Origin: Streptomyces violaceoruber
GTDB lineage: Bacteria; Actinomycetota; Actinomycetes; Streptomycetales; Streptomycetaceae
Length of the DNA: 64,000 nucleotides
Assembly (NCBI GenBank): GCA_000720805.1
Contig: JODI01000040.1
Location: 1 to 64,000, forward strand
Direction of reading: 5' to 3'
In this document: positions 9,456 through 18,775 of the stretch, piece after piece
Numbering within the stretch: position 1 is the first letter of the stretch
Layout of the letters: each line of letters starts with the position of its first letter
Notes under the pieces: model-generated
What the model saw: the letters and a program-made list of their open reading frames with translations, nothing else
Told to the model about the DNA's origin: nothing
Database searches by the model: none
Translations under genes and position numbers: made by a program

Positions 9456-10274
9456 TCAGCGCTCCGGCAGCGGCTCCATGATGTCGTCCAGCCATGTCCG
9501 CCACTGAGGGGCCCGCACCGCCGGTGCCGCCTCCATCGGTCGTGCCGTCCAGCCCGTCACGGGCCGGATGCCGTGCAGTGCGTTCACCAGCCACACCTCG
9601 CGTCCGTCGAGCTCCGCCACGGTCCGTTCGCGGTGGGCGACGCGGGTCCCGGTACGCCACGCCTGTTCCTGGATGAGCCCGACGGTGACCCCGGGCAGGA
9701 CGGGCAGCCGTGGCGGGGGCAGGCACAGGGTGTCGTCCTCCCACCACAGCACGCTGGCGGTGGCCGCCTCCAGCACCACTCCGGACGCCGTGACCAGCAC
9801 CGCCTCCTGAGCGCCCTCGCCGGACGCCCGCCGCCTGACCCGGGCCAGGGTGTCCAGGTCCGGGCCCTTGCGGCGGGGGACGGTCCGCGGATCGGACTGG
9901 CCGGCCGCCCACACCCGTACACCGGAGCCGAGCGGCGGCGCGTGCCGCAGCAGCAGCCGCAACTCCATCGATCCGGCGGCGAGTTCGACCCGGGGAAACC
10001 ACTCACCGGTACGCGGCAGGGCCGCCGCCATGTCCTGCCAGAACTCCAAGAGCCGGCGCAGCGGCGGCCCGCCGCACTCGCCGCACGTCCGCAGAAACCG
10101 CTCCCGGTGCCGTTCGAAAGCCCGCACCCGCCCGTCCCGCACCAGCCAGGAGTCCGCGACGAGCAACCGGCTGCCGACCACCGCGGTCCCCGTCCCCGGC
10201 CCACCGTCCGCCGGCACCAGCCCACCAGCGGGCGTCCACCTCAACAGCCCTTCCACAACCGTCGGTCGAGTCAC
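9456..10274 (-). CDS. Aminotransferase class IV, PabC-like aminodeoxychorismate lyase
   Basis: A 272-aa fold-type-IV PLP enzyme. The GTG at 10274 is preceded by GAGGAGGAG, fixing the start. Recognisable elements are the N-terminal FERHRERFLRTC helix, the RRKGPDLDTLARVRRRA segment where the PLP lysine normally lies, EAVLVTASGVVLEAATASVLWW and LPGVTVGLI. The family includes 4-amino-4-deoxychorismate lyase, D-amino acid and branched-chain aminotransferases. Its position as last gene of an operon containing fused p-aminobenzoate synthase points strongly to the lyase step, releasing pyruvate from aminodeoxychorismate to give p-aminobenzoate. It is more divergent than housekeeping PabC, fitting a dedicated pathway copy. 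Confidence 0.75.
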   Translation of the reverse strand: MTRPTVVEGLLRWTPAGGLVPADGGPGTGTAVVGSRLLVADSWLVRDGRVRAFERHRERFLRTCGECGGPPLRRLLEFWQDMAAALPRTGEWFPRVELAAGSMELRLLLRHAPPLGSGVRVWAAGQSDPRTVPRRKGPDLDTLARVRRRASGEGAQEAVLVTASGVVLEAATASVLWWEDDTLCLPPPRLPVLPGVTVGLIQEQAWRTGTRVAHRERTVAELDGREVWLVNALHGIRPVTGWTARPMEAAPAVRAPQWRTWLDDIMEPLPER

Positions 10275-10287
10275 CAGAATCTCCTCC

Positions 10288-11523
10288 TCAGTACGTGCCG
10301 CCGGCCGCCACCGGCGCCCCGCCCCGCGGCCCGTAGGGCGCGTGTTCCAGCCACGACCCGCACTGCGGCAGGACCGGGGCGAGGGCCGCCGCCGCCCGCT
10401 GCTTGACACGCACGATCCGCCGTCGTGGCCGCAGATGGTCCAACGCCTGTCCGGCGGCAGCGCTGTTGAACAGGGCCGCCGCCCGCCGCGCTTCGGCGAA
10501 CCGGGCGACCGCGCCCGCCGCCGCGTCCGCCCCCGCCGCGACAGCATCTGCCGCCGCTGCCGCGACAGCATCTGCCGCCGCGGCCGCGACAGCATCTGCC
10601 GCCGCGGCCGCGTCGGCGATACCACTGTTCATGCCGCGCGCACCGAACGGCGGGAAGAGATGCGCCGCCTCCCCGACGAGCAGCACCCTCCCGTGCGGGT
10701 CGGTGAACGAGGCCGCGACCTTGCGCAGGAAGCGGTACGTCGACACCCACAGGATTCGCTCGGCGTACCCGTCCCCCACCACCGAGGGCAGCCACCGGCG
10801 CACGGCCTCCTCACTGCCGTACACCTCCTGCCGGTCGTCGTCCCGGCACTGCAGGTCGACCTGGAAGCCCCCGGTGAACGGCACCCGCATCACACTGCGG
10901 CCGCCCACCCCCGGATGCTCGTAGTGGAAGACCCGCTCCAAGGGCAGTTCGGCGCCGGGGATGTCGGCGACGTCGACGACGACGTGGAAGCCCTCCCCCC
11001 GGCTGCCCTCCATGGCGATGCCCAGCCCGCGCCGGAGCGTGGAGCGGGCGCCGTCCGCGGCGATCGCGAAGCCGCCGATCCACACCCGCCCGTCCTCCCC
11101 GGTCAGCCGGACCCCGGTCGCGGTGCTCTGGACGTCGGTCACGCGGGCGTCCCACACGAACTCCACCCCGGCCCGCTCGCAGGCGGCCCGCAGGAAGCGT
11201 TCGGTGTCGACCTGGCGCAGGCTGGTGAACGGCGGGGTCCCGGTGGAGGGCGGGTAGGTCCGGGAGTAGACCTCGCGGCCCCGGTAGAGAGTGCGCCGGG
11301 TCTGCCAGGTCCGCCCGTACGACGTGATCTCGTCGGCGAGCCCCGGCCGCATCCCGTCGAGGAGGCGCAGGGTCTCCCGGTGCACGAACAGGGCCCGGCT
11401 CCCGGGACGTTCCCGGTCCCGCGGGTCGGCCTCCAGGAGGAGGACCGGCAGCCCGTGCGCCCGCAGGGCGAGGGCCGCCGACAGGCCGACGGGGCCGGCG
11501 CCGACGACCAGGACCTGGTTCAC
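10288..11523 (-). CDS. FAD-dependent aromatic monooxygenase (PHBH/UbiH type)
   Basis: A 411-aa group A flavoprotein monooxygenase. It starts VNQVLVVGAGPVGLSAALAL (FAD GxGxxG), has the middle motif AIAADGARSTLRR (DG motif) and the second FAD motif VLLVGEAAHLFPPFGARGMNSG. The GTG start overlaps the upstream ligase stop (GTGA). Directly after GARGMNSGIADA lies an insertion of alternating Ala/Asp-Ala-Val units encoded by a 24-bp minisatellite (10540-10611), in the helix that normally reads DAHNLAWKL in relatives. Context predicts hydroxylation of an aminobenzoate or its CoA or adenylate-derived form; the actual substrate is unknown. Confidence 0.82.
   Translation of the reverse strand: MNQVLVVGAGPVGLSAALALRAHGLPVLLLEADPRDRERPGSRALFVHRETLRLLDGMRPGLADEITSYGRTWQTRRTLYRGREVYSRTYPPSTGTPPFTSLRQVDTERFLRAACERAGVEFVWDARVTDVQSTATGVRLTGEDGRVWIGGFAIAADGARSTLRRGLGIAMEGSRGEGFHVVVDVADIPGAELPLERVFHYEHPGVGGRSVMRVPFTGGFQVDLQCRDDDRQEVYGSEEAVRRWLPSVVGDGYAERILWVSTYRFLRKVAASFTDPHGRVLLVGEAAHLFPPFGARGMNSGIADAAAAADAVAAAAADAVAAAAADAVAAGADAAAGAVARFAEARRAAALFNSAAAGQALDHLRPRRRIVRVKQRAAAALAPVLPQCGSWLEHAPYGPRGGAPVAAGGTY
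10540..10611. repeat. 24-bp tandem repeat inside the FAD monooxygenase
   Basis: Three near-identical 24-bp units (phase starts 10541, 10565, 10589) with core ACAGCATCTGCCGCCGC. On the coding strand each adds eight residues of the ADAVAAAA type. It is in frame, so it varies protein length without breaking the gene. Confidence 0.9.
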
Positions 11524-17778: not shown

Positions 17779-17986
17779 GCTGTCGAGTACGCACCGGAGA
17801 CAGAGGCCGTTCAAGTATTCAACGAAGTTTTTTTGGTTGTCCGGAACGTGACTTTTTATGGCTCTTTCGGACCCCTTGGGCTCTTGTGTCGAGGGGTACT
17901 GCCGGTAACTTTCATCGAATACCCGGAAGCGCTTGCCGGGAAGTCGCCAAAGCTGCACGATCGCTCTTCCCGACCTAAGGAGTTCC
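17779..17986. promoter_or_regulatory. AT-richer divergent promoter region of the p-aminobenzoate cluster
   Basis: A 208-bp gap between divergent genes that contains the most AT-rich stretch of this region (about 17810-17870, with a run of seven Ts). It probably holds the promoters of both the six-gene operon and the DUF3050 gene. I could not assign -35/-10 boxes with confidence. Confidence 0.45.
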
Positions 17987-18775
17987 ATGTCCAGGTACGA
18001 CTGGAACATGCGCCACGAGGGAATCGACCGGACCCGGGCCGAGATCGAACCCGCGCGAAAAGAAGTCACCGCTCATCCCCTTTACCAGCGGATAAGCAGC
18101 CGGGCGCGCATGGCGACGTTCATGAGCCACCACGTGTTCGCCGTGTGGGACTTCATGTCCCTGCTCAAGTCCCTGCAACGCGAACTGACCTGCGTCGACG
18201 TGCCGTGGGTTCCGCGCGGCTCGGACGTGAGCCGGCGGCTGATCAACGACATCGTGCTGGTGGAGGAGAGCGACGAGCTGAACGGCGGCTTCACCAGCCA
18301 TTTCGAGCTGTACCGCGCCGCCATGGCCGAGGCGTCGGCCGACACCGCCCCGATCGACACGTTCCTCGCGCTGATCGCCGAGGGGCACGACATATCCGCG
18401 GCGCTCCGGGTGGCCCAAGTTCCCGCCCCCGCCGCCGAGTTCGTCCGCGCCACCTTCACGATCATCGCCGACCGGCCCCTGCACTGCCGTGCCGCCGCCT
18501 TCGCCTTCTCCCGCGAGGACCTCATCCCGGACATGTTCGACCAGGTCATCAAGAAGGAGGGCACCGACCGTTTCCCCCTCTTCTGCGACTACCTCGCCCG
18601 CCACATCGAGGTCGACGGCGAGGAGCACACCCCCATGGCCATGCAGATGGTCGCCGATCTCTGCGGCACGGACGACATCCGCTGGCGGGAGGCCGTCGAG
18701 ACGGCGAACCTCGCGCTGGAGGCGAGGCTGCGGCTGTGGGACGGGATCACGGAGGCCATGGAGGGTGAGGGGTGA
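17987..18775 (+). CDS. DUF3050 protein, probable haem-oxygenase-like metal oxidase
   Basis: A 262-aa helical protein; AAGGAG at 17978-17983 fixes the ATG. It matches the DUF3050 pattern (HPLYQRI ... MSHHVFAVWDFMSLLKSLQ ... EESDEL ... HFELYRAAM). The spread of candidate metal ligands (His48/49, Glu93/94, His105, Glu107, His166, Glu177, His206, His214) resembles haem-oxygenase-like dimetal oxidases (HDOs), a group with N-oxygenases and C-C-cleaving enzymes such as SznF, UndA and CADD. Assigning DUF3050 to HDOs is knowledge-based. Its action on an arylamine or aminobenzoyl intermediate is inference from its divergent position beside PabAB. Confidence 0.75.
   Translation: MSRYDWNMRHEGIDRTRAEIEPARKEVTAHPLYQRISSRARMATFMSHHVFAVWDFMSLLKSLQRELTCVDVPWVPRGSDVSRRLINDIVLVEESDELNGGFTSHFELYRAAMAEASADTAPIDTFLALIAEGHDISAALRVAQVPAPAAEFVRATFTIIADRPLHCRAAAFAFSREDLIPDMFDQVIKKEGTDRFPLFCDYLARHIEVDGEEHTPMAMQMVADLCGTDDIRWREAVETANLALEARLRLWDGITEAMEGEG

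Follow-up and report, generated by a model that had tools for sequence, protein, structure and literature searches.

The ATP-dependent diazotases CreM, AvaA6, and CmaA6 and the N-nitrosylase Tri17 are adenylate-forming enzymes of the ANL type, and diazotization by ANL enzymes is already known. Nitrite for such diazotization can be provided by the aspartate-nitrosuccinate (ANS) pathway of CreE and CreD. In the fungus Agaricus, a 4-aminobenzoate hydroxylase route leads to 4-hydroxybenzenediazonium. Here, we describe an operon in a 64,000-nucleotide stretch of Streptomyces violaceoruber DNA (hereafter the window, part of contig C40; the genome measures 10.5 Mb and is of the Streptomyces type) that combines genes for p-aminobenzoate (pABA) synthesis with a diazotase-type enzyme, lig2, and lies divergent to a gene for a DUF3050 diiron protein. 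From the sequence we predict, with a probability of roughly 55%, that these genes form a small dedicated diazo pathway, in which pABA would be made, hydroxylated on its ring, and diazotized by lig2 with nitrite supplied by the DUF3050 protein.

Like the described diazotases and Tri17, lig2 is adenylate forming and shares with them a joint clade and a His before the SGTTG motif; it differs in belonging to a separate sister clade, in its pABA substrate route, and in the absence of CreE and CreD from its cluster (CreM itself stood outside the comparison). The ANS pathway, whose genes adjoin relatives of lig2, has the same role that we propose for DUF3050, although the latter, a diiron protein, is unrelated to CreE and CreD and no lyase was seen as its partner. 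The Agaricus route resembles our proposal in its use of pABA, flavin-dependent hydroxylation, and a diazonium, but it is fungal. According to the available part of a review (PMC11705231), Tri17 also converts anilines to diazo compounds, and the penzonemycin (pzm) and azamerone (nap) clusters pair arylamine genes with a CreM homologue. The pzm/nap amine differs from that of the window, CreE/CreD homologues are found within the pzm cluster but elsewhere in the genome for azamerone, and Pzm18 and NapB4 were compared by description only; relatives of lig2 occur in similar settings, namely 3-hydroxyanthranilate-type and type III polyketide synthase (PKS)/aminotransferase clusters. The DUF3050 protein shares family PF11251 with HamA of the fragin/valdiazen cluster and with MgoB of the mgo operon, the latter called DUF3050 in the available part of PMC3298696. 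HamA is partnered with a non-ribosomal peptide synthetase (NRPS) and an AurF-type oxygenase (PMC11659414, available part), whereas in the window the partners of DUF3050 are a ligase of the diazotase type and the genes for pABA synthesis; no Pfam match to an NRPS or AurF-type N-oxygenase, the partners in the fragin/valdiazen-type diazeniumdiolate cluster, was found among the 20 proteins scanned, which come from the operon and the genes on either side of it. An earlier note on this DNA, made from the sequence alone, knew of no described cluster with this exact set. Diazotization by ANL enzymes as such is known, but in the literature searched we found no description of a pABA-fed, CreE/CreD-free version that has a ligase from a distinct clade and DUF3050 as its partner.

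Phylogeny, Motif, and Gene Neighbors of lig2

In an NCBIfam scan of lig2, general fatty-acid ligases ranked on top and the 3-aminoavenalumate diazotase AvaA6 ranked ninth at 66.4 bits; that lig2 is AvaA6 itself was ruled out, as this score is far under the cut-off of the corresponding model. The best sequence match in the PDB was Tri17 (8tf7/9bq0; 114 bits, E 8e-32), 4-chlorobenzoyl-CoA ligase reaching only 57 bits. In a tree of 67 rows, lig2 with seven close and 14 more distant relatives fell beside AvaA6 orthologues, Tri17, and CreM-like proteins, the lig2 clade being sister to the AvaA6/Tri17-type clade, and support for the split between this joint group and the 21 other ANL enzymes was 100/99. 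This split stayed, at 100/100, in a second tree (67 rows, 19 others) that included ten still more distant lig2 relatives. Both trees were unrooted, and their other ANL rows consisted of two CoA ligases plus 19 (first tree) or 17 (second tree) sequences from the genome of the window, where 53 ANL matches had given 30 loci. Eight NRPS-type adenylation domains, two rows that were too short, the CoA ligase of the window (a duplicate), and one fragment from locus L018 were omitted from the first tree, and ten further rows (near-copies or long branches) from the second. Each of the 48 rows of the lig2/diazotase group had His as the residue preceding [ST]SG[ST][ST]G, whereas the 19 others had Tyr or Phe there; this criterion comes from the present analysis and is not a published one. 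His also occupied this position in 117 of the 120 listed lig2 homologues, the remaining three giving no motif.

The strongest hint to the function of lig2 came from gene neighbors. We searched with CreE/CreD queries taken from locus L053 and from the ava-type locus L051 of genome G007, in which AvaA6 scores above its curated cut-off and the gene order matches the published ava table (PMC10777205). Among 14 lig2 relatives at 43-52% identity, six have CreE as well as CreD no more than 5 kb away, with L027 as an exception (CreE within 5 kb, CreD ~7 kb away); all six CreE/CreD-linked rows belong to one 12-row clade, sister to the pABA core plus L022. PhzE/PhzD genes (aminohydroxybenzoate) adjoin five of the 14, and an arylamine N-acetyltransferase directly adjoins the lig2-type gene in two of these relatives. 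A lig2-like gene also stands together with anthranilate synthase, CreE, and CreD in Streptomyces sp. NBC_00388 (L247), and with CreD, a type III PKS, an aminotransferase, and an aromatic prenyltransferase in Streptomyces sp. KMM 9044 (L248). For the pABA cluster itself, 122 stretches with lig2 loci were found in named genomes and 80 were kept, 77 of them titled Streptomyces; CreD/CreE occurred in none of these 80, over the reach of each stretch (at most 10 kb per side). CreE/CreD are not obligatory for diazotase clusters, 72 of 134 ava-like clusters being without them (PMC10777205). Because of its clade, its His motif, and its CreE/CreD-linked relatives, we read lig2 as very probably a nitrite-dependent diazotase.

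Two side observations concern the query genes. In public records, the CreD homologues of L247 (18816-19533) and L248 (1-643) bear the name pcaB (3-carboxymuconate cycloisomerase). With CreD queries also picking up a PcaB-like gene, counts of CreD that rely on annotation may mislead. In addition, four Streptomyces genomes have, in comparable chromosomal surroundings, a CreE-like gene (~60% to the query) without an adjacent CreD (L141 7195-9054, L144 7668-9443, L145 7136-9079, and L146 8441-10384).

Alternation of DUF3050 with CreD and CreE

The DUF3050 protein is 37% identical to HamA, and all six ligand positions of the heme-oxygenase-like diiron (HDO) site, assigned according to the available part of PMC4520260, are common to both, in agreement with the HDO-like nature proposed for it in the earlier note. 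In a class-wide sample, a diazotase-type ANL enzyme was located within ~5 kb of DUF3050 in 13 of 17 fetched places (14 of 18 including the window), and these enzymes fall in several separate clades; a genus-wide genome search gave 13 other DUF3050 places, seven of which were fetched. CreD/CreE were present in none of the 24 DUF3050 loci and never together with DUF3050 there or in the 80 pABA loci. Two gene sets carry one system or the other. The first (type III PKS, cupin, DegT aminotransferase, polyprenyl synthase, LytB, and lig2-like) has CreD/CreE in L027 and DUF3050 in L239, while L028 and L029 hold most of this set with neither. The second (ketosynthase, HPPD-like dioxygenase, PhyH, and AvaA6-like) has CreD/CreE in L053 and L242, DUF3050 in L198-L201, L223, and L224, and neither in L054, L055, L058, L240, and L241; the motif search missed L198-L201, and their partner was counted through its AvaA6-like match. 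Because the two systems alternate in two gene sets and were not found together in any of these loci, DUF3050 is most simply read as standing in for CreE/CreD, and we tentatively propose, at a little under even odds, that it is an alternative nitrite source.

As further observations on this family, a gene of the CMD family lies near DUF3050 in six of the seven loci L232-L238 (L232-L237) and in L226, as it does at the operon of the window. On Robbsia and Burkholderia glumae plasmids (L249 7935-11570 and L250 8013-11622), DUF3050 is the first gene of an apparent operon with a short-chain dehydrogenase/reductase (SDR) and a coenzyme-F390-synthetase-like gene.

Conservation and Layout of the Gene Set

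Co-occurrence was counted in 63 of the 80 loci, those of other species that extend 6.5 kb or more upstream of lig2. All 63 contained PabAB, the CoA ligase, lig2, and the FAD monooxygenase. The ABM gene was present in 62 loci, PabC in 60, and the CMD gene, which lies nearby, also in 60; DUF3050 was present in 34 and the MocR regulator in 30. Within the named collection, the lig2 locus nearest to that of the window comes from Streptomyces cellulosae NRRL B-2687 (98% identity). Farther away, in L022 (another genus) and the plasmid-borne L245, the core is accompanied by an aldehyde-dehydrogenase/AMP-binding pair that we read as LuxC/LuxE-like and there is no ABM match, and L230 and L231 (another family) hold PabAB, the CoA ligase, lig2, DUF3050, and a divergent monooxygenase. 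Because each core gene is found in 60 to 63 of the 63 loci, and part of the core also in another genus and another family, the core is a real inherited unit, more than chance, to which DUF3050 is linked but optional. Among 61 genomes of the genus, DUF3050 at 80% identity or more was found only in G000 and G007, each time in this cluster, and two further genomes carry relatives at 45-47%. All of the genes listed in the earlier note are borne out by Pfam matches and motifs (Table 1), and the hallmarks of pABA synthesis are present, namely a fused glutamine amidotransferase/chorismate-binding protein with PIKGT and a class IV lyase. The co-inheritance on which that note made its reading depend applies to the core but not always to DUF3050, and the CMD/AhpD gene, which is part of the conserved set, had been overlooked.

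Table 1. Features of the pABA operon and its neighbors in the window
Feature	Position	Strand	Evidence
lig2, diazotase-type adenylate-forming enzyme	11520-13115	-	PF00501 without PF13193; Tri17 match; clade; His before SSGTTG
DUF3050 protein of the HamA/MgoB family, heme-oxygenase-like diiron type; proposed source of nitrite (nitroso donor)	17987-18775	+	PF11251 321 bits, cut-off 22.2
ABM-domain membrane protein	17200-17778	-	PF03992 23.9 bits, cut-off 23.1 (weak); start chosen by conservation
PabAB, fused aminodeoxychorismate synthase	14743-17169	-	PF00117 + PF04715 + PF00425; PIKGT at residue 570; CLGHQG
Benzoate-CoA-ligase-like enzyme	13109-14632 or 13109-14746 (ATG start 14632 or 14746)	-	PF00501 + PF13193
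FAD-dependent aromatic monooxygenase	10288-11523	-	FAD_binding_3, PF01494 152 bits
PabC-like aminodeoxychorismate lyase, class IV PLP enzyme	9456-10274	-	PF01063 95 bits; below NCBIfam PabC cut-offs
CMD/AhpD-family protein with CxxC, tail-to-tail neighbor of operon	8765-9256	+	PF02627 74 bits; TIGR00778 65 bits
MocR-type GntR/aminotransferase regulator, less constant neighbor	7293-8708	+	PF00392 + PF00155

The six minus-strand genes follow the order ABM, PabAB, CoA ligase, lig2, monooxygenase, and PabC-like, with overlaps or gaps of at most ~30 bases, except that the gap ahead of the CoA ligase is 110 bases if 14632 is its start. The divergent DUF3050 gene is ~210 bases away from the operon and has a good ribosome-binding site, AAGGAG, upstream. 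The CoA ligase scores 356.9 bits against TIGR02262 (cut-off 375.25) on a slightly shortened N terminus, and it matches benzoate-CoA ligase in the PDB at E 3e-87. Since five other matches to PabAB, whole or in parts, are found in the source genome, the PabAB of the operon need not serve folate. Beyond the CMD/AhpD gene, on its left side, lie the MocR-type regulator, apparent glycine-betaine transport genes, and a GMC oxidoreductase, which are probably unrelated to the operon.

The PabAB linker and the possible N terminus of the CoA ligase (14632-14746) contain short ATPSATE-like and DRHAGTHP-like amino-acid repeats, and start sites in this part are therefore unsure. In L245 (1254-19536, a plasmid of Streptomyces sp. 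ADI95-16), the pABA/diazotase-type cluster is followed by a thioesterase, a fatty acyl-AMP ligase, several desaturases, and a carrier protein, an extension that recalls polyyne or modified-fatty-acid clusters; a pairing of diazo and alkyne would be chemically interesting. Matches resembling L245 (H32-H37) exist as well.

Discussion

In the proposed pathway, PabAB and PabC would convert chorismate to pABA, as their motifs suggest, the benzoate-CoA-type ligase would activate the pABA carboxylate, and the FAD monooxygenase would hydroxylate the ring, either before or after this activation. Clade, motif, and genetic links suggest that lig2 would adenylate nitrite with ATP, with the aryl amine as acceptor of the nitroso unit; the result would be a diazonium or a quinone diazide, the latter being the form that an ortho or para hydroxyl would stabilize. 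The DUF3050 diiron enzyme would oxidize some small amine to nitrite, and clusters without it would draw nitrite from nitrate metabolism. The CMD/AhpD protein may, speculatively, guard against nitrosative by-products. The end product could be a diazo compound, an azo or hydrazone coupling product, or an aromatic formed after loss of N2. The pathway is probably one of nitrite-dependent diazotization and not of nitro formation.

Several observations weigh against this proposal. lig2 fails the AvaA6 equivalog NF058622 (66.4 bits versus a curated cut-off of 975), its predicted fold ties with acyl-CoA ligases and cannot discriminate between the two functions, and its wider relatives (34-41% identity, eight loci L178-L185) have none of the queried nitrite or arylamine genes but one CreE. 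Both DUF3050 and CreD/CreE are missing from 29 of the 63 pABA clusters, and nitrite may therefore also come from nitrate metabolism; in three genomes with DUF3050-less clusters (G009, G013, and G014), no DUF3050 was found at E <= 1e-40, and CreD-like matches of 56-59% were present. A diazotase-type ANL enzyme is lacking from 7 of the 24 fetched DUF3050 loci and from the DUF3050 loci of the Mesorhizobium and Thiodictyon plasmids, and on proteobacterial plasmids DUF3050 is accompanied either by an SDR plus a coenzyme-F390-synthetase-like gene or by no recognizable partner. The AvaA6-like partner in L198-L201 (54-55%) keeps the His but has an altered P-loop and may be inactive: L198 and L199 read THSSGTTRMPA in place of the usual THSSGTTGxPK (Arg and Ala for Gly and Lys), and L200 and L201 fail the motif too. 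In the available parts of the respective papers, HamA is non-essential for hydroxylamine intermediates (PMC11659414) and mangotoxin is still made by an mgoB mutant (PMC3298696). A hamA mutant given the N-N-bonded intermediate still yields fragin and valdiazen (PMC11659414, same part), and HamA therefore acts at or before N-N formation, so the evidence on HamA, whose own role is unsettled in the literature, cuts both ways.

The alternative that survives best retains lig2 as a nitrite-dependent diazotase but makes DUF3050 a tailoring N-oxygenase or a post-diazotization enzyme, with nitrite derived from nitrate assimilation. NirB was above its cut-off in all five cluster-bearing genomes searched, and one 20 kb stretch (L023 2152-19909) unites lig2-type and 3-hydroxyanthranilate-type genes with NirB-like halves and with a molybdopterin oxidoreductase and a nitrate-type major facilitator superfamily transporter, which we read as nitrate assimilation. 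The 29 clusters without DUF3050 also agree with a tailoring role, as does the presence of the N-oxygenases HrmI and RohS among the HDO relatives that DUF3050 matches in the PDB. However, a cluster-specific enzyme would not predict the diazotase-linked recurrence of DUF3050 across chemistries or its alternation with CreD/CreE, and we regard this explanation as unlikely. Far less probable is that lig2 has left nitrite chemistry and is now an amide- or ester-forming ligase yielding an ordinary aminobenzoyl conjugate: this would fit the neighborhoods of L178-L185 (CreE in one of eight) and the 80 pABA loci free of CreD/CreE within each fetched stretch, but the pABA core plus L022 is sister to the clade with the six CreE/CreD-linked rows, and HPPD/PhyH and type III PKS clusters likewise pair DUF3050 with an enzyme of the diazotase type. 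The model of the earlier note, in which both ligases activate carboxylates (as CoA or AMP derivatives) and DUF3050 oxygenates the aryl amine of pABA to a nitroso or nitro product, is compatible with the HDO fold and diiron ligand set, the adjacent pABA genes, and the uninformative fold of lig2, but has only a slim chance of being correct given that the clade, His motif, and CreE/CreD links point to a diazotase instead and that the core persists without DUF3050.

Returning to lig2-dependent diazotization with DUF3050-supplied nitrite, the cluster would probably be overlooked by genome mining, although common in Streptomyces, as lig2 is far from the AvaA6/CreM clade and CreE/CreD are absent. A broader idea, which we hold only provisionally and as somewhat more doubtful than the pathway itself, is that the diiron enzymes of the DUF3050 (HamA) family make up another widespread system for forming nitrite or a nitroso donor, one that replaces the ANS pathway and feeds ATP-dependent diazotases in several unrelated pathways, among them the pABA-to-diazo route proposed here. 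If DUF3050 makes nitrite, this would help to explain the nitrite supply of diazotase clusters without CreE/CreD, such as the ava-like ones cited above, would give a function to a family known by number only, and would make the HamA question testable with one enzyme assay. Such a role, if true, would be a larger find than the cluster variant and would account for the step, so far unsolved, that HamA and MgoB carry out in operons linked to fragin and mangotoxin.

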